Source of the DNA: Nannocystineae bacterium
GTDB lineage: Bacteria > Myxococcota_A > Polyangia > Haliangiales > Haliangiaceae
NCBI GenBank assembly: GCA_007133195.1
Contig: SLNH01000253.1
Location: forward strand, 1 to 43,659
Direction of reading: 5' to 3'
DNA: 43,659 bases
Part shown: one piece after another, positions 1 to 40,663 of the stretch
Layout: every line of letters starts with the position of its first letter
How positions within the stretch are numbered: position 1 is the stretch's first letter
Program-made: the position numbers and the translations under genes
Notes under the pieces: model-generated
What the model was told of the DNA's origin: nothing
Databases searched by the model: none
Seen by the model: only the letters and a program-made list of their open reading frames with translations

Positions 1-819
1 CAGGCGCCGGCGGGGCAGGCGCCGGGCGAGGCAGGCGCCGCGCAGGCGAAGGCGCCCAAGCCCGCCCAGTCGCCGGCCCCCGCGCCCGCCCCAGAAAAGC
101 CCGACCAGCGAGATGCGGGAAAGCCCGAGGACGTGGTCCGCATGTCGCCGCTCAGAAAGCGGATCGCCCAGCGCCTCGTGGAGGCGCAGCAGTCCACCGC
201 GTCGCTCACCACATTCAACGAAGTGGACATGAGCGCCGTCATGGCGCTGCGCAAGCGCTACCAGGATCTGTTCGTGGCCGAGCATGACATCAAGCTCGGG
301 TTCATGTCGTTTTTCGTCAAGGCGGCGGTCGAGGCGCTCAGGAAGTTCCCCGGCATCAACGCGGAGGTGCGCGATGAGAGCATCGTGTACAAGAGGTACT
401 ACGATCTCGGCATCGCCGTGGGCACCGAGCGAGGCCTCATCGTGCCGGTCTTGCGCGACGCCCACGCGCTGGGCTTCGCCGACATCGAAAAGGGCATCAT
501 CGATCTGGCGACCAAGGCGCGCGACAACAAGCTCGTCCTCGACGACCTGATGGGCGCGACCTTCACGATCACGAACGGCGGCATCTTCGGCTCGATGCTC
601 TCGACGCCGCTCTTGAACTTTCCGCAAACGGGTATCCTCGGCATGCACAACATCGTCGAGCGGCCGATGGCGGTAAACGGTAAGGTCGAGATCCGCCCGA
701 TGATGTACATCGCGCTCAGCTACGACCACCGGGTGGTGGACGGCAAAGAGGCCGTTCAGTTTCTGGTCGCGATCAAAGAGCGCATCGAGCAACCCGAGCG
801 CCTCATGTTCGGCGTGTGA
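1..819 (+). CDS. sucB: Dihydrolipoyllysine succinyltransferase (E2 of 2-oxoglutarate dehydrogenase), 3' part
   Basis: The reading frame is open from base 1, so the 5' part (lipoyl domain, probably the E1/E3-binding domain) lies outside the window. What remains is an Ala/Pro/Gln/Lys-rich swinging-arm linker (bases 1-130) followed by the complete catalytic acyltransferase domain, beginning [17 protein letters not shown]. The active-site motif DHRVVDG is present, with the catalytic His codon at 727 and Asp at 739. The family transfers succinyl from the lipoyl arm to CoA in the TCA cycle. The sequence around [18 protein letters not shown] and the TFNEVDMS segment resemble SucB more than pyruvate dehydrogenase E2, but a branched-chain E2 cannot be excluded from the C-terminal half alone. 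No E3 gene follows; the next genes are on the opposite strand. Confidence 0.9.
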
Positions 820-1655: not shown

Positions 1656-3326
1656 CTACTCCACCACCAGGGCCAGGAGCGTGATGTCGTCGCCCTGCCG
1701 TCCGCGCGCGATGTGCGCCTTCACATCTCCGAGCACGTAGCCGACCAGATCGCCCGGATCGCCTTCGGCGCTCGCGAACCGCTCCGCGAGGCGGTCGAAT
1801 CCGTATTCGGTCCCGTGGCGATCGCGCGCCTCGTGGATTCCGTCAGTCGTAAACAGGAGGCGATCGCCGCCCTTGAGCGACACCCGCGTCTCGGCCATCG
1901 CCGTGTTGTGCATCACCCCCACTGGCGGGGCATGGGCGCCCTCGTCGCCGAGCGGCACGACCTCGCCCTCCCGGCGCAAAAGCGGCGCCACATGGCCGGC
2001 GTTCGTGAGCACGAGCTCCCGCTCGTCCAGGTCGTAAATCGCGCAGACCAGGGTCGCGAACATGCCCCCCGAGCTGAGCATGCACATGGCGTCGTTTACC
2101 TGCGCGAGGAGCTGGCTCGGGCTTTCCGCGATCACCGCGCGTGAGCGGAGCTCGCTCGTGAGCCGGGCCATGTACAGGGCGGCGCTGATGGCCTTGCCGG
2201 CCACATCGCCGACCACGATGGCGACGTGCGAGGCGTCTTGCCAGATGAAATCGTAAAAATCGCCGCCGATTTCGTAGGCTGGAGCGTAGTGCACGGCGAC
2301 GCCCAGCCCCGCCCGCCTGGGCGCCTCCGGGTCCGGGAGGAGCGACCGCTGGATCTGGCGGGCCACGCGAAGGTCCCGCTCGAGGCGCTGCTGCCGCGAT
2401 AGCTCGTCTCGCATTCGCGCCACGTCGATCACGAGGCCGACCTGGGCCGCGATGCTCGCGAGGAGATCACGGTCGTCGCGCCGGAGCGCCGGGGACGCGC
2501 AGCCGACGTACAAGGCTCCGCACGCGGCCTCGCCCGCGCGCACGGGCGCACCCATGTGAGCGCCCACGGGGCTTCCTGAATCGGCCTCCCGGCCGGGCTC
2601 GCCCGCCCCGGCTCCGAGCAGGATGCCCCCCGGGTGAAGCTCCACGCGTTCGAGAAGGATTCGGGGAATCTCGACGCCGCTGGTCCCGTCCCGCCGGCAC
2701 AGGGAGCGGACTTGCAGCGCGCCTCCCTCGCCCTCCGGCGCGAGCACGCAGGCGGCCTGGGCCTGGGGAAACAGATCGAGGAGCTCGCGGGCCAGCGCCG
2801 CGAAGATCTCTTCGCTGCCCGCGCGCGACGCCGCGTGCTCGAGGATCGAGCGCAGGGCGCCGAGCTTGCTCTCGGCGAGTCGCATGGCCAGGTCCGGATC
2901 GGGCGCCGCCGCTGCGGGTCCGTCCGCGACCTCGCGGGGATAGATCCGCGCCTCGCCGAGGTCCACGACCGATAATCCGGCGCCGGGCGCGTCGGGTTCG
3001 CCCAGCGCGGGTTCTGAATCCGACTCGAATTCGCCGGCTCGAATTTCGACCCGGCAAGCGCTTTGGGCGAGCGCCAGCTCGTCGCCGTGCTCGAGGATGA
3101 GCGGCCGGCGCACGGCGGCGCCGTTTACGAACGTGCCGCAGCGCGAGCCCAAGTCCTCGACCACCCAGCGCGCACCCTCGCGTCGCAGACGCGCGTGGCG
3201 GCGAGACACGCGCAGGTCGGGGATGAACACCTGACAGCTGGCGTGACGTCCCATCACGAGCTCGCCACCGGCGAGGGGATACCGTCGCCCGGCGTTCGGG
3301 CCGGCCGTGAACACGATCGAAGCCAT
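1656..3326 (-). CDS. FHA-GAF-SpoIIE/PP2C serine phosphatase
   Basis: About 556 residues from the ATG at 3326, chosen because the FHA fold begins immediately (MASIVFTAGPNAGRRYPL); an in-frame extension to 3407 is Arg-rich and unlikely. Domains: FHA at 1-100 with GRH (27-29), SRRH (41-44) and GTFVNG near 65-70, which binds phosphothreonine; a GAF-like region at about 140-300; a short coiled segment; then a SpoIIE/RsbU-type PP2C domain at about 330-556. The metal-binding acidic residues are visible in GGDFYDF, VGDVAGK, TTDGIHEA and the terminal GDDITLLAL. The family dephosphorylates partner proteins such as anti-anti-sigma (STAS) factors in the cytosol. No such target is adjacent, but STAS proteins are encoded at 34.9-37.5 kb, so it could be an RsbU-like output phosphatase. 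That link is inference. It diverges from the operon starting at 3519. Confidence 0.88.
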   Translation of the reverse strand: MASIVFTAGPNAGRRYPLAGGELVMGRHASCQVFIPDLRVSRRHARLRREGARWVVEDLGSRCGTFVNGAAVRRPLILEHGDELALAQSACRVEIRAGEFESDSEPALGEPDAPGAGLSVVDLGEARIYPREVADGPAAAAPDPDLAMRLAESKLGALRSILEHAASRAGSEEIFAALARELLDLFPQAQAACVLAPEGEGGALQVRSLCRRDGTSGVEIPRILLERVELHPGGILLGAGAGEPGREADSGSPVGAHMGAPVRAGEAACGALYVGCASPALRRDDRDLLASIAAQVGLVIDVARMRDELSRQQRLERDLRVARQIQRSLLPDPEAPRRAGLGVAVHYAPAYEIGGDFYDFIWQDASHVAIVVGDVAGKAISAALYMARLTSELRSRAVIAESPSQLLAQVNDAMCMLSSGGMFATLVCAIYDLDERELVLTNAGHVAPLLRREGEVVPLGDEGAHAPPVGVMHNTAMAETRVSLKGGDRLLFTTDGIHEARDRHGTEYGFDRLAERFASAEGDPGDLVGYVLGDVKAHIARGRQGDDITLLALVVE

Positions 3327-3418
3327 GAAGTCCCGGAGCGCCGCGGCACCGCCGCCGAGCGCCCGTCTGATCCTTCGAGCGCGACTGAACACGCCCCGTT
3401 TCACCACCGGGTGTGGAC

Positions 3419-3518: not shown

Positions 3519-6500
3519 ATGGTGAAGCCGAACGGGGACTATATCGGCGGGGCGTTCGCACCCCCCGAGGGGGAGCCGCTGTCATCGGTGAACCCCGCAC
3601 GGGCGGGACAGCCTGTGCTCGAGACGGCCTGGGCGCCCGAGCGCGCCGAGCGCGCCGCCGACGCGGCGTCGGACGCGGCGGTCAGGTGGATGGAGCTCGG
3701 CACGGAGGCGCGCTGGGCGCAGCTTTTGCGCTTTCGCGACGCGCTCGCCGGCCGCGCCGAGGGCCTCGCCGACGCGATCGTGGCCGAGACCGGAAAGCTC
3801 CGCAGCGAGGCGGACGGCGAGGTGCGTTCGCTCTTGTCGCGCTTCGATCTCATTCGCGGCATCGCCGGTCGCGACCTGGCGGAGGGCCCGGTACAGGGCA
3901 ACTGGGCCGAGCAGCTGCGCTACCACCCGCTCGGCGTGGTGGGGGTCATCGGACCGCTGAACTTTCCGCTCCACCTGTGCCACGCCCACGCGATGCCCGC
4001 GCTCCTTCTCGGCAACGCGGTCGTGATCAAGGTGAGCGAGGTCGCGCCGCTGTCCGGCCAGCGCTACGCCGAGGCGGCGCACGAGGCCGGGTTTCCGGCC
4101 GGCGTGTTCAACCTCGTTCAGGGGCGCGGCGAGGCCGGCGCCCGGCTCGTGGATCACCCCGCCGTGCGCGGGCTGTGCTTTACGGGCTCCTATCCCGTCG
4201 GAAAGCGCATCCAAGAGCGAGCCGCCGCGCGCCCCGAGCTCCTCGTCGCGCTCGAGATGGGCGGCAAGAACACGGCCGTGGTGTTCGACGACGCAGACGT
4301 CCGCCAGGCGGCGCACGAGATCGTCACGGGCGGATACCTCACCGCGGGCCAGCGCTGCACCGCCACCGAGCGCGTGCTCGTCCACCGCCGGCGCCGGGAC
4401 GAGCTCGTGGACGCGCTGCGGCCGCTGGTGGCGTCGCTTCGCATCGGTGATCCCGAAGATCCGCGAAGCTTCGCCGGGCCGCTCGCCACCCGCGCCGGGC
4501 GCGAGCGGTTCGAGGAGCGGATTCGGGCCGCGCACCGCGGCGGCGCCGAGCCGGCGGTCGCGCCCGTTTTCGGCGAGGACGGTTTTTTCGCCGGCGCCTC
4601 GCTCCACCGCCTCCCCGACGGAGCCCACGACATCCCCGGATACACAGACACGGAGGTGTTCGGTCCCGATGTGGCCGTCGAGACGATCGAGAGCGACGAG
4701 GAGGCGATCGAGGTGCTCCGCAAAAGCTCGTTCGGGTTCGCCAACAGTGTGTTCACCGCCTCGGACGAGCGCTTCGAACGCATCTACCGCGAGACGAGCT
4801 CGGGCATCCTGAACAGAAACCGCAGCACCAACCAGGCGAGCCCGCGGCTACCGTTCGGGGGCCTGGGGCGGAGCGGCAACTACCGGCCGGCGGGCGCGCA
4901 CGCCCCGCGCAACGTGGTGGCCGCGGTGGCGGTCCAGGAAAATGTCCTCGGCGCCATCGACGTTCACCCGCTGCTCGCGGACCACCTCCGCGCGCCCGAC
5001 CTGGCGCGACTCGAAGAGCAGCACGCCGCCGAGGAGGAGGCGGAGTCGGCGCGCCGCCTGCTCACCGAGCCGCGGCCGATGTCCTTGCGCCGTCCGGGTC
5101 GCGGCGCGCTGCCTCGGTCGGATAACTGGCTCACGCGGCTTTACGCCGGCGAGCGCACCGTGCGCGAGAAGAAGCCCGCGGTGTTCGACCACCTGCGCTC
5201 GAGCGGCCCGTGGTTCGTGTCCATCGACGACGATCCGCTGTGCGTCCTCGACGGCATGAGCCAAACGGCCACCACGTGCGGGGGCTTCGCCGAGGATCCG
5301 GTGGTGCGCGCGTTCGTGGAGGGGGGCTTCGGCGACGCGCTCGTTTTCGCCGGCGACGGCGCGGATCCCGCGTGCGAGGAGGCGCAGGCGCTCGCCACCG
5401 AGATCCGCCAGCTCGTCCCCGGGCTCCCCCACGTGAGCTTCACGTCGAGCGGCGCGGAGGCCAACGAAAAGGCGCTGGCGCTGTGCCGGCAAAACGCGCC
5501 GCGGCCGGAGGCCCAAAAGATCCTCGCGTTCGAGGGCGGCTTTCACGGTCGCACGCTCCTGTCGCTCCACGCCACCTACAACCCGAAGAAGCGAAAGCCG
5601 TTCGAGATCCCGGGCTTCGAGGTCACGTTCGCGCCGTTTCCGGCGCGGCCGGATCCCGTCGCCGACGAGCCGCCGGCGCCGCCCGGGTTTTTCGCCGCGG
5701 CGGGGAGCGGCGACGCGGCCGCCATCGTTCGCGAGTTCGGGGACGAGGCCGAGGATCCGCTGCTCGCCATCGAGGCCAAATCGCTGGCCGCCGTGGACGA
5801 GGCGCTCCGCTCGGGCGAATACCTGGCCTGCCTCGTCGAGCCGATGCAGAGCGAGGGCGGCGACCGGTACGCCACGGCGCGGTTTTTCCGGGCGCTCCGG
5901 CTGCTCACGCGACACCACGGCGTGTATCTGGTCGTCGACGAGGTGCAAACGGGGTTTGCGCTGGGTGGTCCGTTCGCTTGGCACGGACAGTTTCAGCTCG
6001 TGGATGTCCGGGGCCGCCCCGACGCGCCCGACGCGGTCACCTTCGCCAAGCGCGCCCAGGTGGGCGTGTGCCTGAGCCGGTTCGAGGATCCCGAGCCGTC
6101 GCCGGCGCCGCCGGCCTCGCTCGTGCGCGGGCGCATCCACGCCGAGATGATGGCCATGGCGCACCACGCCGCGCGCCTCGAGCGGCTCGTTTGGCCCAAG
6201 CTGCGGGTCCTCGCCCAGGCGTTCCCGCACCTCGTGGATCGGCCGCGGGCGCGGGGCTTCGCCTTCGCCTTCGATCTGCCGTCGGCCGATCACCTCAAGG
6301 CCTATCTCGGCCAGCGGTTTTGGCGGGGCGCGATCGTGTTCGGAGCGGGCGAGCGGACCGTGCGCTACCGGCTCTCGGAGGCCTATCACGCCCGCGAGGT
6401 CGAGGAGCTGTTCGCGACCGTGCGGCGGTCGCTCGCGTGGCTGGACGCCCACCCAGGCGCCGAGCCGCCGAGGTGGGAGGATCCGGCAGAGCCCGACAAG

Positions 6501-8153
6501 CGGCCGGCGGAAGCGGGCGGCGCGCGGGTCAGGACGCTCTCGAGCGAGGAGGCGCTCGAAAAGCTGCAGGCCATGCTCGACATCGAGCACCGAGTCTACG
6601 AGCCGGCTCGCCGCACGACCCCGGCGCACATCCGCGAGGCGCTCGAGCACCCGGAGGCCATCGTTACGGTGGGGGAGCGGGACGGGGAGCTCGCCGGGTT
6701 CGCGATCGGGGTGCCGCTCGAGGACTGCACGGACGTGGAGGGGCCGGATCGGGATCCGATGCTAGGCCAGGAAAATAGCCTGTATTCGGTGTCGCTCACC
6801 ATCGTGCCCGAGGCGCAGGGGCTCGGGGTGGGGCGGGCGATCAAGGAGGCGCAGCTCGCCGAGGCCGCGGCGCGTTTTCGCCCGGACGGCACGCCGCGCT
6901 ATCGCTACGTCACCGGACGAAATAGGGTCGGTCACACCGCGCGTATGACGCATTTGAATCGCGCGTACGGCGCGCACATCGTGTGCGTGCTAACCGGCCA
7001 GTACGACGATCCGGAGGGCCAGGCGATCTACTACCGCATCCCGCTCGGCCCGCTCGCGCCCGACCCCGCGTTGCGCCGGGCAAGAGATGGCGCGAGCGCG
7101 CTCTTTTGCGATCGGGGCGTGAGCGAGCCTCTGTCCGCGCCTCCCGACAGCCTGCGGCGCGCGGAAAAGAGCGGGCTGCTCTACGGCCCGGCGGTCAACA
7201 AGATCACGCTCACGAACTACGTCACCCCGGCGGCGGTGCGCGCGATCGAGTGGGTGTCGGCGCTTTTGCCCGAATTGCCGCACCTGTATTTGGCCTCCGG
7301 GCGGGACGAGGCGCTCGACAAGGCGCTGCGCATCTGCCGCTATCACCGCGGTGAGGCCGCGGTCGCCATCGGACTCGAGGGCGGGTACGTGGGCCACACC
7401 ACCGCGGCGGCGCGCTCGATCTCGGATCCGGCGGTGCACAGGCAGGGGCCCGCGCACCTTTCGTGGCCGCGCATCCCGCACCCCGCGCGCGTGGGCGCGG
7501 AGGCGGCCATCGCTGCGCTGGAGGGGGCCATCGAGGAGGCGGGCGGAGGCGAGCGCGTCTTGGGGCTCGTATTCGAGCTCGTGCAGGAGCGGACCGGCGA
7601 GGCGCTCCCCGAGGCGTTTGTGCAGGAGCTCACCGCGGTGAGGCGCCGCCACGGCGTGCCGGTCATCGCCGTGGAGACCGCCTCGGCGTGCTACCGCTCG
7701 GGGCTGGGCCCGCTGGCGTCCCCGGGGCTCGGATTTCGGCCCGACGTGCTCTTGTGGTGGGGCGGCGCGCAAACCGCCTACCTCCACGTTTCATCGCCGC
7801 TTTGGGTGTCGTCGCCGCTCACGATGGTCTCGACGTGGGACGGCGACGAGCTGAGCCTCGTGCGCGAGCACCACCAGCTCCGGGCCGCCCGGCACCTGGA
7901 CGTCCGCCCCGCATCGGCGGCGCTCGAGCGCGCCGCACAGCGGGCGGGCGAGCGGGGTATGCCCATGCCCGGGCTCGGCTGCTACCGGGTCCTTCAGGCG
8001 GGCGAGCTGGGCGACCGCGTGGCCGGCGCGCTCGCCGCGCGGGGGCTCGTTTGTCGGCCCGTGCCCGGCGGCGGGATTCCGATCGCGCCGCCCCTGGATC
8101 GGGCCGAGGAGGCCGCCGGCATCCTCATAGACGTCCTCGAGGAGGTTCGCTGA
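3519..8153 (+). CDS. Four-domain fusion: aldehyde dehydrogenase / class III aminotransferase / GNAT / pseudo-aminotransferase
   Basis: 1544 residues; ATG at 3519 preceded by GCAGGAGA. Domain 1 (about 1-485) is an NAD(P)-dependent aldehyde dehydrogenase, closest in look to succinylglutamate-semialdehyde dehydrogenase (AstD): general base Glu246 in LEMGGKN and nucleophile Cys280 in TAGQRCT. Domain 2 (about 530-985) is a class III PLP aminotransferase resembling lysine 6-aminotransferase: [10 protein letters not shown] near 643, Asp807 in VVDEVQTG, Schiff-base Lys844 in [10 protein letters not shown]. Domain 3 (about 1005-1180) is a GNAT acyltransferase with the acyl-CoA motif [10 protein letters not shown] near 1100. 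Domain 4 (about 1220-1544) has the aminotransferase fold pattern but the Lys aligns with Gly1415 and the Asp with Glu1386, so it should not bind PLP covalently. Transamination of an omega-amino group followed by oxidation of the semialdehyde fits domains 2 and 1; the substrate (lysine, ornithine or an acylated form) is inferred. Stop overlaps the next start. Confidence 0.85.
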
Positions 8154-9271
8154 TGCGCGTTTTGGAGCTGCCGGCGGGCGCGGGGCCGCGCGAGCGGGGC
8201 CGCGTTCACGGCGAGGCGTTTCGCCACGAGATCGGCGCGCTCGCCGATATCCGCACCTACCTGTGCCGCCGCGTGGGCGGCTTTGCGAGCGACGAGGCGA
8301 TCCTCGAGCTGGCAAAGGCGCACCTGCCGGTCCTCGAGCGCTACGACCCAGCGCTTTACGACGAGCTTTTGGGAATCGCCGAGGGCGCCGCCACCACGCC
8401 GGCCCGGATCGTCGTTCTCAACCACTATACGGACCTGCGCGATATCGACGCGAGCGGGGGGCACGCGGGCGGAGCGCAAGCGCCCGGGGGGGGCGACGAG
8501 GACGCGGGCTGCAGCCTTTTGTATGCGCGCGCCCCCGCCGGCCCGGTGCTCGCGCAGACCTGGGATATGCACGCCACGGCGATACCGTATGTGATGATGC
8601 TGCGCGTGCCGGACACGGGCGATGGTCCCGAGTCGATCCTGCTTTCGCTCACCGGATGCTTGGGCATGTGCGGCATGAGCCGGCGGGGGGTCGGCATCGC
8701 CATCAACAACTTGCACAGCAAAGACGCGCGGATCGGCGTCGTGTGGTCCGCGCTCGTGCGGCGGGCGCTCCGCGAGCCGAGCGCCGAGGCGGCGCGCGAT
8801 CACATCCTGCAGAGCCCGCTCGGCTCAGGGCATCACTACTTCGTGGCCGACGACCGGGCGGCCTACGGCGTGGAGACGTCCGGCGCGCTCCGCGAAGTGG
8901 TGTTCGACGGTGCGGGTGAAAACTACGTGCACGCGAACCATTGCCGGAGTGACGCCGTCGCTAACGTGAGCCGCGTTCCCGCCACGAGCTCGACCCACGA
9001 GCGGATGGCCAGGCTTTCGGACAGCGTGAGCGCCCGCCCCGTCGAGGGGCCGCTGGATGCGTGGGCGCGGCTCGAGGATCAAGAGGGCTACCCCAAGAGC
9101 GTGTGCGGGAATCTGTCCACCCCGGAAAACCCGCACGGAACCGCGACGTGCGCGGGCATCTCGTTGGATTTGCGCAATCGGGTGGTGTGGGCCGAGGGCG
9201 GCTTCACGAACAACGTCGCGCCGGCCAGGTTTGCGTTTTCGGCCGACGAGCCGGGCGAGGAGGCAACATGA
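8153..9271 (+). CDS. C45-family Ntn amidohydrolase / acyl-CoA:6-APA acyltransferase-like
   Basis: 372 residues. The ATG at 8153 shares its A with the preceding TGA (TGATG), and GAGGAGG lies just upstream; a longer upstream frame only shadows the fusion gene. The family (peptidase C45, isopenicillin N acyltransferase-like) is made as a proenzyme that cleaves itself before a Cys which then becomes the N-terminal nucleophile. Here Gly119-Cys120 in DAGCSLLYA is the expected cleavage site, followed by AQTWDMHA, equivalent to the QNWD motif of the family, and [15 protein letters not shown] near the C-terminus. No signal peptide is visible, so it is cytosolic. Relatives hydrolyse or transfer acyl groups on amino-acid amides. 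In this operon it may remove an acyl group added by the GNAT domain of its neighbour; that is inference. Its last bases overlap the next gene by ATGA. Confidence 0.82.
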
Positions 9272-10017
9272 GTGAGGTCACCGCTTTAGGCCCACAGACC
9301 GGACGGGATACGAGCAAAGTCGTGGCGAGCTGCGCCGAGGCCATCTCCGATCTGCGCGACGGGGCGAGCATCATGGTGGGAGGCTTCGGGCTGTGCGGGA
9401 ACCCTGAGGGGCTCATCGCCGCCGTTTTGGATCACGGCGCCCGCGATCTCACCATCATCAGCAACAACGCCGGCAACCTCGGCAAGGGGCTCGCCACGTG
9501 GCTCAATGCCGGCATCGTCCGCAAGGTGGTGTGCACCTACCTCGGGAACAACGAGGATCTACACCGCATGCGCGAGGAGGGCAGCATCGAGACCGAGGTG
9601 ATGCCGCAGGGGACCTTCGCCGAGCGAATCCGCGCTGGCGGGGCCGGCATCCCCGCGTTTTACACCCCGACGGGCGTGGGCACCGTGGTCGCCGAGGGCA
9701 AGGAGGTGCGGCGCTTCGATGGGCGCGACTACCTGCTCGAGCGGGCGCTGTCGGCCGACTTTGCCTTCGTACGCGCGGCGGTGGGAGACGAATATGGGAA
9801 CCTCAGGTTTTATCGAACGGCGCGGAACTTCTCTCCGCTCATGGCCACGGCCGCCCGGATGCCCGTCGCCGAAGTAGACGAGCTTCGCCCGCTCGGGGGC
9901 CTTGACGCAGACGACGTGCACCTGCCCGGCATTTTCATTCGCCGAATCGCCCTGGTCCGCGAGCACGAAGATCCTTTCGAGTACCGAACCGTCCGGCCGC
10001 GCCGGGAAGGGAGCTGA
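9268..10017 (+). CDS. scoA: Succinyl-CoA:3-ketoacid CoA-transferase subunit A
   Basis: 249 residues from the ATG at 9268, which overlaps the preceding stop by four bases (ATGA). [20 protein letters not shown] followed by [14 protein letters not shown] is the typical start of the alpha subunit of class I CoA-transferases, and [26 protein letters not shown] and [15 protein letters not shown] match throughout. The A and B subunits together move CoA from succinyl-CoA to a 3-oxoacid such as acetoacetate. Position at the end of the amino-acid operon suggests it activates an acid product of that pathway, or recycles acetoacetate from lysine or leucine breakdown. The true acceptor cannot be read from sequence. 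Confidence 0.9.
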
Positions 10018-10020
10018 GCC

Positions 10021-10650
10021 ATGGGACGAACGCGCGACGAGATCGCCGCCCGCGCCGCCGCCGAGCTCGAGCCGGGGATGGTCGTAAACCTCGGAATCGG
10101 CTTGCCCACGCTGATTCCGGGCCATCTGCCCGAGGCACACGGCGTGTGGTTTCACAGCGAAAATGGCCTGCTCGGCATGGGCCCGTTTCCCGAGGAGGGC
10201 GACGAAGATCCCCAGATCATAAACGCCGGCAAGCAGACGGTGACGGTGGTGCCGGGCGGATCGTGCTTCGACTCGGCGCTGTCGTTTACGATGATCCGTG
10301 GCAGCCACGTGGATCTGGCCGTGCTCGGCGCGATGCAGGTGTCAGAGCGCGGCGATCTGGCCAACTGGAGCGTGCCGGGCGGCAAGACGATGGGAATCGG
10401 CGGCTCGATGGATCTCGCGACCGGGTGCCGGCGCCTTCTCGTCGTCACCACCCACACCACGAAGACCGGCGAGCCCAAGCTCGTGCGCGCGTGCGATTAT
10501 CCGCTCACCGCGCGCGGCGTGGTCCATCGCATCATCACCGATCTCGCGGTCGTCGATGTCGCCGAGTCGGGATTTCGGCTGGTGGAGTGCGCGCCGGGCG
10601 TGACCGAGGCCGAGGTCCGCGACGCCACCGGGGCCGAGCTTTTGGCCTAG
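10021..10650 (+). CDS. scoB: Succinyl-CoA:3-ketoacid CoA-transferase subunit B
   Basis: 209 residues starting MGRTRDEIAARAAAELEPGM, three bases after the subunit A stop with GGGAGCTGAGCC as ribosome-binding region. It carries the class I CoA-transferase beta-subunit signature VVNLGIGLPTLIP and the catalytic glutamate in HSENGLLGMGP (Glu47), which forms the glutamyl-CoA thioester intermediate. The protein has normal length for the family. It is the last gene of the plus-strand operon; the next gene converges from the other strand after 44 bases and no terminator with a T-tract is visible between them. Confidence 0.92.
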   Translation: MGRTRDEIAARAAAELEPGMVVNLGIGLPTLIPGHLPEAHGVWFHSENGLLGMGPFPEEGDEDPQIINAGKQTVTVVPGGSCFDSALSFTMIRGSHVDLAVLGAMQVSERGDLANWSVPGGKTMGIGGSMDLATGCRRLLVVTTHTTKTGEPKLVRACDYPLTARGVVHRIITDLAVVDVAESGFRLVECAPGVTEAEVRDATGAELLA

Positions 10651-38983: not shown

Positions 38984-40663
38984 TCAGCCTTCGCGCGGCG
39001 CGCACACGACGCCTGCGAGCATCGCCGGGTCCACGTCCTCGGTGTCGGACAGGGGGGAGAACGTGGCCTCGAGCTCGGACAGCCACGCGGCCATCAGATC
39101 GGGGACGTACTCCATGCCCGCGGACACCTGGGCGGCTCGCAGGTGGTCCGTGAACGCGCCTTTGGCTCGATCCTTGGCCTCGTCCGGAAATTGGCCGCCG
39201 CGGGCGGAGCGCACCAGCGCCTCGATCTCAGCCGGCGCGAGCGGCGCCGCCGACAGCGCGCCACCGGCGACGACCCGGGCCAGGGCGGTGCGGATGTGAT
39301 CGTCGAGCTCGGGGTGATCTCCGCCCTCGCCGGCTTCGAGGAGCGAGGCGCCGAGCGCGTCGGCGGCGGCGACGCGGAGCGCGAGGCGCGTGACCGCTTC
39401 GGCCGCGCGGCGGACGTCGGCCCGGGACTCGAACGGCCGGATCCCATGCGCGCCGGGCTCGTCGAGGCACACCGGGTACCAGGGCCGCGCGCCGAGTAGC
39501 GCGCCCAGGAGCGCGGCGTCGGCGTCACCGGCGGCCTGCGCGCGCGGGGCGAGCGCGCGCGCCAGACGCGCGAGGGGCAGCGTGGCGGTGTGACCGACCC
39601 GGTGCAGCCGGGTGAGGGAGATGGTGCGGAGCGCTTCGGTGGCCAGGTCCGGATCACTCCCCGAGACGAGCTCGAGGCCCAGGGCGAGGGTGCTCGTTGC
39701 GTGCTGCGTGCCGGCCGCGCGCGCTTCCGGGTCCCCGGGTCGCACGCGCGACGCGGACAAGACCTTGTTGACGAGCAGCACGAGCGCCGCCTCGATCCGG
39801 CTCGCCTCGGCGGCGTCGGTGATGCGATCGAGCGTCCTGGCCAAAAATTCGCGACCCACCGCGACGTCGAGCAAAAGCGCCGGCAGCGCGCGCGGCGCCC
39901 GGGCTTCGTCGCCTTCGAGCGCCGGATCCGCGGGTTCGGCCGTGCCCTCGCCGATCTGCACGTGCTCGACCGGGAGGGGCCGAAACACCGCCAGCGCCTC
40001 GTAGTAGTCCACGTAGCCGAGATCGGCCATGCGGCCGGCCCGCCACCTGTAGCTCATCTCCGCGAGCTCGGTGGTCGGTTCGGAGCGCGCGCAAAGAAGC
40101 GTGTGCCTGGCGAGCTCGGGGTCGGCGCGGTAGAGACTTTCCAACAGCTCCAAAGCGAGCTGTGCGTCGTCCTCGTCCTCGGTCGTGAGCTCCACGCAGA
40201 AAAACGTGTCCGGGGTCTTGTAGACGGGCGCCTGGCTGTCCTCCGGCGGCGCCTCCTCCAGCGTGGTGTCGTAGACCCTCGCGAGCCGGGTGATGAGGAG
40301 CGCGGCGAGCTCGGTGTCGAGCGTGGCCCATATCTCGCCAAATCGCTCGTAGCCCGCCGCGAGGGCTGCTCGGAGCCAGGGCACGGCCCGCGAGACGTCG
40401 AGCTCGTCTCGCTCCCAGATCTCGATGTCGAGACACCCCCGGACCTGCTCGCCCGTGGCGAGCGCGAGGAGCTCGTAGCTGTCGGCGAGCCCGACCTCGC
40501 TGACCAGCTCGTGGAGCTCGAGCACGGACAGGCCGCCCACGGCTTCGGCCGGATTTTGGGCTGAAAGCAGCGCCTCGATGCGGCGTACGCCGCGGGGGCG
40601 GGCGAGCGCGGCTCGGAAGCGCGAAAGCGGCACCACCGTGTCTCGTGGGGCGTCCTGCGTCAT
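38984..40663 (-). CDS. DUF6178 family protein
   Basis: 559 residues. The N-terminus VPLSRFRAALARPRGVRRIE, LSVLELHELVSEVGLADSYE, LLALATGEQVRGCLDIEIWE and LITRLARVYDTTLEEAP are the recurring features of the DUF6178 family, known mainly from deltaproteobacterial genomes. It is predicted to be cytosolic and largely alpha-helical, with acidic stretches and no signal peptide or catalytic motif visible. The C-terminal half (QHATSTLALGLELVSGSDPD onward) is less conserved. Function unknown. The ATG at 40663 has no good ribosome-binding site but is the only plausible start. It diverges from tilS over a 169-base gap. Confidence 0.75.
   Translation of the reverse strand: MTQDAPRDTVVPLSRFRAALARPRGVRRIEALLSAQNPAEAVGGLSVLELHELVSEVGLADSYELLALATGEQVRGCLDIEIWERDELDVSRAVPWLRAALAAGYERFGEIWATLDTELAALLITRLARVYDTTLEEAPPEDSQAPVYKTPDTFFCVELTTEDEDDAQLALELLESLYRADPELARHTLLCARSEPTTELAEMSYRWRAGRMADLGYVDYYEALAVFRPLPVEHVQIGEGTAEPADPALEGDEARAPRALPALLLDVAVGREFLARTLDRITDAAEASRIEAALVLLVNKVLSASRVRPGDPEARAAGTQHATSTLALGLELVSGSDPDLATEALRTISLTRLHRVGHTATLPLARLARALAPRAQAAGDADAALLGALLGARPWYPVCLDEPGAHGIRPFESRADVRRAAEAVTRLALRVAAADALGASLLEAGEGGDHPELDDHIRTALARVVAGGALSAAPLAPAEIEALVRSARGGQFPDEAKDRAKGAFTDHLRAAQVSAGMEYVPDLMAAWLSELEATFSPLSDTEDVDPAMLAGVVCAPREG

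Follow-up and report, generated by a model that had tools for sequence, protein, structure and literature searches.

Does a bacterial protein chain that carries an aldehyde dehydrogenase (ALDH), an aminotransferase (AT1), a GNAT acyltransferase and a second aminotransferase-like part (AT2) in a row represent four enzymes, and what might such a chain do? The question is raised by a gene of 1544 codons near one end of a contig of 43,659 nucleotides from a Nannocystineae bacterium (SLNH01000253.1, assembly GCA_007133195.1), which was analysed over its whole length and is referred to here as the window. An original prediction, made from the letters of this stretch, had described four enzymes or enzyme folds in one uninterrupted frame and a semialdehyde passing from the aminotransferase to the dehydrogenase. 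The chain and the order of its parts are upheld below, and the succession of transamination and oxidation is probably right. The count of four enzymes does not hold: AT2 looks like the complementary half of AT1, rather than a fourth enzyme, from a residue pattern found in 50 of 50 sequences.

A single frame with four parts

The open reading frame begins with ATG and contains 0 internal stops, and its G+C content at codon positions 1, 2 and 3 (0.76/0.52/0.90) is coding-like. Pfam scans, together with the profile and the AlphaFold2 (AF2) fold of AT2, recover the four parts in the order described, and Glu246, Cys280, Asp807, Lys844 and the GNAT motif near residue 1100 all stand where they had been placed. 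Within the same family, 28 of the 29 genomes contain a match to the fused protein at E=0, and many of them a full-length single-frame match of ~60% identity. The four-part order is also present at loci L034, L160, L161, L167, L169 and L159, the last of which encodes the whole chain (1577 aa) within a single 10.3-Mb contig. Because the order recurs across genomes, chance or mis-assembly is excluded; a frameshift that joined separate genes is likewise ruled out by the relatives and by the one-contig L159. Plasmid records searched with the fused protein yielded 0 places covering 80% of its length. Searches of the open-licence literature (most subscription papers lie outside it) that addressed the fusion, beta-lysine genes and one-site transaminase pairs retrieved no description of the fused protein. 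All its parts belong to known fold families, and neither the aminotransferase nor the dehydrogenase part reaches the equivalog cut-off of any characterised enzyme.

Residues divided between AT1 and AT2

AT1 is a member of the class III aminotransferases (PF00202, Aminotran_3; 130.9 bits, starting at residue 553, cut-off 30.5), and both profile and Foldseek searches return L-lysine 6-aminotransferase (LAT) of M. tuberculosis, in first place, and pig 4-aminobutyrate transaminase (GABA-AT) as its top relatives in the PDB. It lies outside the curated L-lysine 6-transaminase family TIGR03251, with 122 bits against an equivalog cut-off of 520.8. A Pfam scan of residues 1204-1544, which constitute AT2, gives 0 matches; its profile hits class III aminotransferases of the PDB (best 8.6e-18), including LAT across most of its length, and aligns the AT2 motif STWDGDE with STWGGN of LAT. 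The AF2 model of AT2 alone (pTM 0.78) has a class III fold, with a best Z of 19.8 and an rmsd of 3.8 over 201 aligned residues, and a model of AT1-GNAT-AT2 (pLDDT 71, pTM 0.69) confirms the fold of AT1.

Residue conservation, counted over 50 distinct family sequences, follows a reciprocal pattern. In AT1, Lys844, Asp807 and Arg949 are kept in 50/50 and Glu779 and Arg678 wherever the aligned row covers them, and the Ser-Thr-Trp motif occurs in 0/50. In AT2, S1438-T1439-W-x-G-D is kept in all 50, no sequence has a lysine at the column of LAT Lys300—the lysine of class III enzymes that binds pyridoxal 5′-phosphate (PLP)—and the equivalent of LAT Arg170 is gone from 49. Each active site of LAT draws Lys300, Asp271, Glu243, Arg170 and Arg422 from one subunit (PMC9780415), Ser329 and Thr330 being donated by the other, with Thr330 binding the PLP phosphate (PMC9780415). 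Reciprocal loss of this kind is expected from a duplicated homodimer in which one half stays catalytic and the other keeps only the partner-donated residues. AT1 and AT2 thus very probably form a covalently joined pseudo-dimer with a single composite site, built within or between chains. Both would descend from class III aminotransferases of the LAT/GABA transaminase type; AT1 would supply the PLP lysine, the aspartate, the glutamate switch and both substrate arginines, and AT2 the Ser-Thr pair gripping the PLP phosphate across the interface. Codon 1386 of the fused gene (7674-7676), which lies in AT2 and is aligned with the PLP-ring aspartate, encodes glutamate in 50/50; since this residue is invariant despite the absent PLP lysine, the position is under selection.

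Relative to LAT (Rv3290c) and mitochondrial GABA transaminase, the lysine, aspartate, glutamate switch and both arginines are shared by AT1 and the partner Ser-Thr by AT2. However, LAT is a homodimer of a self-sufficient chain, whereas the fused protein splits these roles over two degenerate halves linked via GNAT, and its aminotransferase scores fall far below the family cut-offs. A comparable division is found in eukaryotic serine palmitoyltransferase, a PLP-dependent pair in which LCB1 lacks the lysine and a single site per LCB1/LCB2 pair is thought to exist (PMC3794620). In contrast to AT1 and AT2, LCB1 and LCB2 belong to another fold-type I family, are two separate chains and have no inserted GNAT or ALDH.

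The original reading, in which the chain would house four independent activities, AT2 having a catalytic or binding task of its own and a tunnel running from Lys844 to Cys280, draws on the presence of all the folds in one chain. It is highly improbable, as AT2 has no PLP lysine in any of the 50 sequences and keeps exactly those residues that serve a partner, and as AT1-GNAT-AT2 is maintained in carriers without ALDH.

The conserved core and its GNAT part

The GNAT part reaches 24.6 bits with PF00583 as an isolated piece (cut-off 20.7), which places it in the family, and 20.5 bits within the whole protein. Its motif A is QGLGVG (1100-1105), and the second glycine is present in 50/50. A single-sequence search of solved structures with the GNAT piece found nothing significant.

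AT1-GNAT-AT2 chains that lack an in-chain ALDH are present in Enhygromyxa salina (L033), in a different family of the class (L021) and, among Bdellovibrionota, in Bacteriovoracaceae and further records (L036, L037, L038, L040), with identities of ~27-46%. An AT2 match was found in 33/192 genomes of the Bdellovibrionota sample, with uncut open frames of ~925-1099 aa; of the sampled Myxococcota genomes, 30/237 have one that exceeds 100 bits. The three-part core spans both Myxococcota and Bdellovibrionota: the conserved core is AT1-GNAT-AT2, and ALDH is optional. Frames of ~800-950 aa in one further family (f38; G314, G351, G355, G359, G379, G416, G435, G440) match the AT2 profile weakly, with 80-95 bits, and may represent another aminotransferase fusion.

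The aldehyde dehydrogenase part

Residues 17-463 match PF00171 (Aldedh) with 341 bits against a cut-off of 23, which assigns the N-terminal part to the superfamily, and its catalytic residues are conserved (Asn148 and Glu246 in 21/21, Cys280 in 21/22 of the aligned rows covering the position). The best NCBIfam models are those of AstD, at 309 and 288 bits and below the cut-offs of 514 and 579, so that the part is not assigned to the AstD equivalog (TIGR03240, 288.4 bits, cut-off 579.3); solved AstD structures are also its best structural-database matches. AstD, of the arginine succinyltransferase (AST) pathway, is therefore the nearest characterised kind, sharing the catalytic Asn, Cys and Glu. 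Unlike AstD, the ALDH described here has about half of the cut-off score and is joined to an aminotransferase, and 0 operon genes pass as another AST enzyme. ALDH is fused to the core in several families, and in L168 and L173 it has a gene of its own that immediately precedes the AT1 frame; it is thus tied to the core by both fusion and adjacency. In these two loci, ~100 extra residues precede AT1 (L168:7619-7980, L173:10200-10578).

The operon and its neighbours

The original prediction mentioned neither the optional nature of ALDH nor the operon in which the fused gene lies. The stop of the fused gene overlaps the ATG of a gene for a C45 autoproteolytic acyltransferase/hydrolase (TGATG), which in turn overlaps the gene for 3-oxoacid CoA-transferase subunit A by 4 bases; subunit B starts 3 bases after A (Table 1). 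Relatives have a standalone class III aminotransferase gene between C45 and the CoA-transferase, and the order fusion, C45, class III aminotransferase, CoA-transferase A and B is shared by Myxococcota and Bdellovibrionota. Because Bacteriovoracaceae show the identical order, these genes have remained linked across two phyla, with one or more flanking genes absent in single genomes. A D-Ala-D-Ala ligase beside the operon in Bacteriovoracaceae was set aside as a cell-wall enzyme outside the pathway, being the only strong ligase match there.

Table 1. Location of the fused gene, its parts and its neighbours in the window
Feature	Position	Strand	Basis
Whole fused gene, ALDH - AT1 - GNAT - AT2, 1544 aa	3519..8153	+	Open reading frame and recurrence
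ALDH domain, AstD-like, residues 1-475; Asn148, Glu246, Cys280	3519..4943	+	PF00171 341 bits; best NCBIfam models are AstD
AT1, catalytic class III half of LAT/GABA-AT type, residues ~531-980; Arg678, Glu779, Asp807, Lys844, Arg949; lacks the partner-donated Ser-Thr motif	5109..6458	+
Lys844 codon, PLP lysine, equivalent of LAT Lys300	6048..6050	+	Aligned to LAT; kept 50/50
GNAT N-acyltransferase between the AT halves, residues ~1000-1180; motif A 1100-1105, conserved YE 1027-1028	6516..7058	+
AT2, aminotransferase half without PLP lysine, residues 1204-1544; S1438-T1439-W-D-G-D-E kept	7128..8150	+
Thr1439 codon, aligned to LAT Thr330 (partner-subunit PLP-phosphate ligand)	7833..7835	+
C45 autoproteolytic acyltransferase/hydrolase, candidate N-acyl hydrolase	8153..9271	+	NF040521 171.7 bits, above cut-off 85
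3-oxoacid CoA-transferase subunit A	9268..10017	+	TIGR02429 268.4 bits, above cut-off 128.5
3-oxoacid CoA-transferase subunit B	10021..10650	+	TIGR02428 297.2 bits, above cut-off 243.55
FHA-SpoIIE/PP2C phosphatase, divergent neighbour	1656..3407	-	Conserved next to the fusion in genomes of the same family (L023-L027)

Several neighbours are recorded here as observations. The FHA part of the divergent phosphatase resembles OdhI, an inhibitor of 2-oxoglutarate dehydrogenase; no membership in the pathway is claimed. A gene for the E2 component of that dehydrogenase (sucB) precedes the operon by a few kb in the window (133-819, +) and in L025 (14397-15665), which may be chance. As seen by eye, an AraC-like gene is divergent from the AT1-GNAT-AT2 gene in two lineages, in L033 (7823-8980) and upstream of the fusion in L021, and is a candidate regulator. 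Further away, 38984-40663 (-) gives a full-length match to DUF6178, a family without known function.

A co-occurring relative of lysine 2,3-aminomutase

Lysine catabolism via N6-acetyl-beta-lysine, the first enzyme of which is lysine 2,3-aminomutase, uses an acyltransferase, a hydrolase, an aminotransferase, a semialdehyde dehydrogenase and a 3-oxoacid CoA-transferase. A KamA-type aminomutase gene (at least 66% identity) is present in 28/33 AT2 carriers and 0/159 non-carriers of the Bdellovibrionota sample, nine of the non-carriers having KamA copies of 34-39% identity only. In Myxococcota, a KamA-type gene is found in 28/30 carriers and 55/207 non-carriers. Fisher tests of the co-occurrence (7e-29 in Bdellovibrionota, 1e-12 in Myxococcota) ignore the species tree, so that shared ancestry is not removed. 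The association is also visible within the Myxococcota family f16, where KamA2 is present in 4/4 carriers and missing from 4/6 visible non-carriers. The KamA2 proteins of L028, L029, L115, L117 and L119, the copy from the genome of the window included, keep both lysine-binding substrate aspartates of lysine 2,3-aminomutase (D293 and D330 of the C. subterminale enzyme).

Proposed function and alternatives

We infer every reaction proposed here from the parts, the operon, the complementary residue loss and the co-occurrence, which are read from the sequence. An aminotransferase of the LAT/GABA-AT kind adjoining a semialdehyde dehydrogenase points to an omega-transamination with subsequent oxidation, and it is likely that the N-terminal ALDH oxidises a semialdehyde produced by AT1 to the corresponding acid. 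Fusion and adjacency make it plausible that AT1 hands its product over to ALDH; the core is also kept without a covalent ALDH in ALDH-free carriers. The presence of an acyltransferase and a candidate N-acyl hydrolase in one operon suggests temporary protection of an amino group, and there is a reasonable likelihood that GNAT attaches an acyl group to an amino group of the substrate at an earlier step and that C45 later strips it off. Taken jointly, a catabolic multi-enzyme polypeptide with a composite transaminase, oxidation of the AT1 product by ALDH and acyl protection by GNAT and C45 is, on balance, the reading we lean towards, the pathway being left open between the following possibilities.

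The CoA-transferase, being of the 3-oxoacid kind, suggests a 3-oxo acid such as arises from a beta-amino acid, and the role favoured for the whole set, at somewhat less than even odds, is acyl-protected lysine breakdown through beta-lysine. The unlinked aminomutase relative would form beta-lysine, GNAT would convert it to N6-acetyl-beta-lysine, and an aminotransferase would yield the 3-oxo acid. CoA-transferase and thiolase would then release acetyl-CoA and a 4-acetamidobutyryl unit, from which C45 would free 4-aminobutyrate, and AT1-AT2 together with ALDH would convert the latter to succinate. The assignment is tentative because the co-occurrence ignores the tree and because KamA2 scores far below its cut-off. 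A number of observations weigh against it or against parts of it. The KamA2 of the genome itself reaches 262.1 bits, against the 525.4 of the lysine 2,3-aminomutase equivalog. KamA never adjoins the operon, either in the regions around KamA at five places or in the contig positions of 53 genomes, so that an adjacent KamA as in kam/yod-type operons is absent, the nearest same-contig pair noticed being ~27 kb apart (G476). In Myxococcota, 55 genomes without AT2 also carry KamA; in Bdellovibrionota, five AT2 carriers lack that KamA type, and KamA and AT2 may just mark one clade. The GNAT piece matches 0 NCBIfam families at E<=0.1, and no known model of beta-lysine acetyltransferase (AblB). ALDH is closer to AstD than to succinate-semialdehyde dehydrogenases, and the operon of many carriers is without any ALDH. 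The standalone aminotransferase is absent from the operon of the window (best match in the genome, 40% identity). Finally, the AT1-GNAT-AT2 model is of moderate quality only, and the pairing of AT1 and AT2 is argued from residues.

A close bacterial precedent is the kamA/ablA-ablB type of beta-lysine gene set, represented in B. subtilis by kamA-yodPQRST. As in the kamA/ablA-ablB genes, a GNAT, a class III aminotransferase, a CoA-transferase pair and a hydrolase occur together here, although the GNAT matches no curated acetyltransferase model, the hydrolase is of the C45 family and KamA is unlinked. Lysine 2,3-aminomutase genes are known to cluster with beta-lysine acetyltransferase (PMC2821294), and the physiological roles of Bacillus KamA and YodT are themselves open (PMC6522883).

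The same enzyme set could act on acylated lysine as in some yeasts: GNAT would form N6-acetyl-lysine, a transaminase and oxidative decarboxylation would give 5-acetamidovalerate, C45 would deacetylate it, and AT1-AT2 and ALDH would lead via glutarate semialdehyde to glutarate, activated by the CoA-transferase. The nearness of AT1 to lysine 6-aminotransferase and the 2-oxoglutarate dehydrogenase E2 gene a few kb upstream in the window and in L025 fit this route, which is nevertheless unlikely, since it leaves the co-occurring KamA relative without a role and since the CoA-transferase belongs to the 3-oxoacid families. An AST-like breakdown of ornithine or arginine, in which GNAT would acylate the alpha-amine, AT1-AT2 would produce an acyl-glutamate semialdehyde, ALDH would oxidise it to acyl-glutamate and C45 would free glutamate, agrees with the order acylate, transaminate, oxidise, deacylate and with the AstD models and structures that head the ALDH matches. 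These AstD scores, however, are far below their cut-offs, AT1 is closer to LAT/GABA-AT than to AstC, and the CoA-transferase and the second aminotransferase would go unexplained, which makes such a route quite unlikely. Direct 6-transamination of lysine by AT1-AT2, with ALDH oxidising aminoadipate semialdehyde and GNAT and C45 performing another, perhaps detoxifying, task, would account for the position of LAT at the top of the profile and Foldseek matches of AT1 and for the complete LAT catalytic set over AT1 and AT2. It is very unlikely in view of the low score of the LAT model, the valine or isoleucine that AT2 has at the column of LAT Asn328, and the lack of a role for GNAT, C45 and CoA-transferase.

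The most far-reaching version of the beta-lysine proposal—a covalent pseudo-heterodimeric class III aminotransferase with an inserted acyltransferase and a fused semialdehyde dehydrogenase, serving an undescribed acyl-protected beta-lysine pathway of Myxococcota and Bdellovibrionota—is slightly less probable than the pathway assignment itself.

Implications

If the pairing of AT1 and AT2 is correct, the fused protein would be a clean natural example of one enzyme whose catalytic and supporting roles have been parcelled out to two halves of a single chain, its complementary loss after duplication having been fixed over two phyla. The case would resemble LCB1/LCB2, here within the class III aminotransferases. 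The fused protein and its operon would also represent a compact set of enzymes that deal with reactive amino-aldehydes. Many myxobacteria and relatives of Bdellovibrio use the protein of other cells as food, and the operon would be a testable candidate for their use of lysine.

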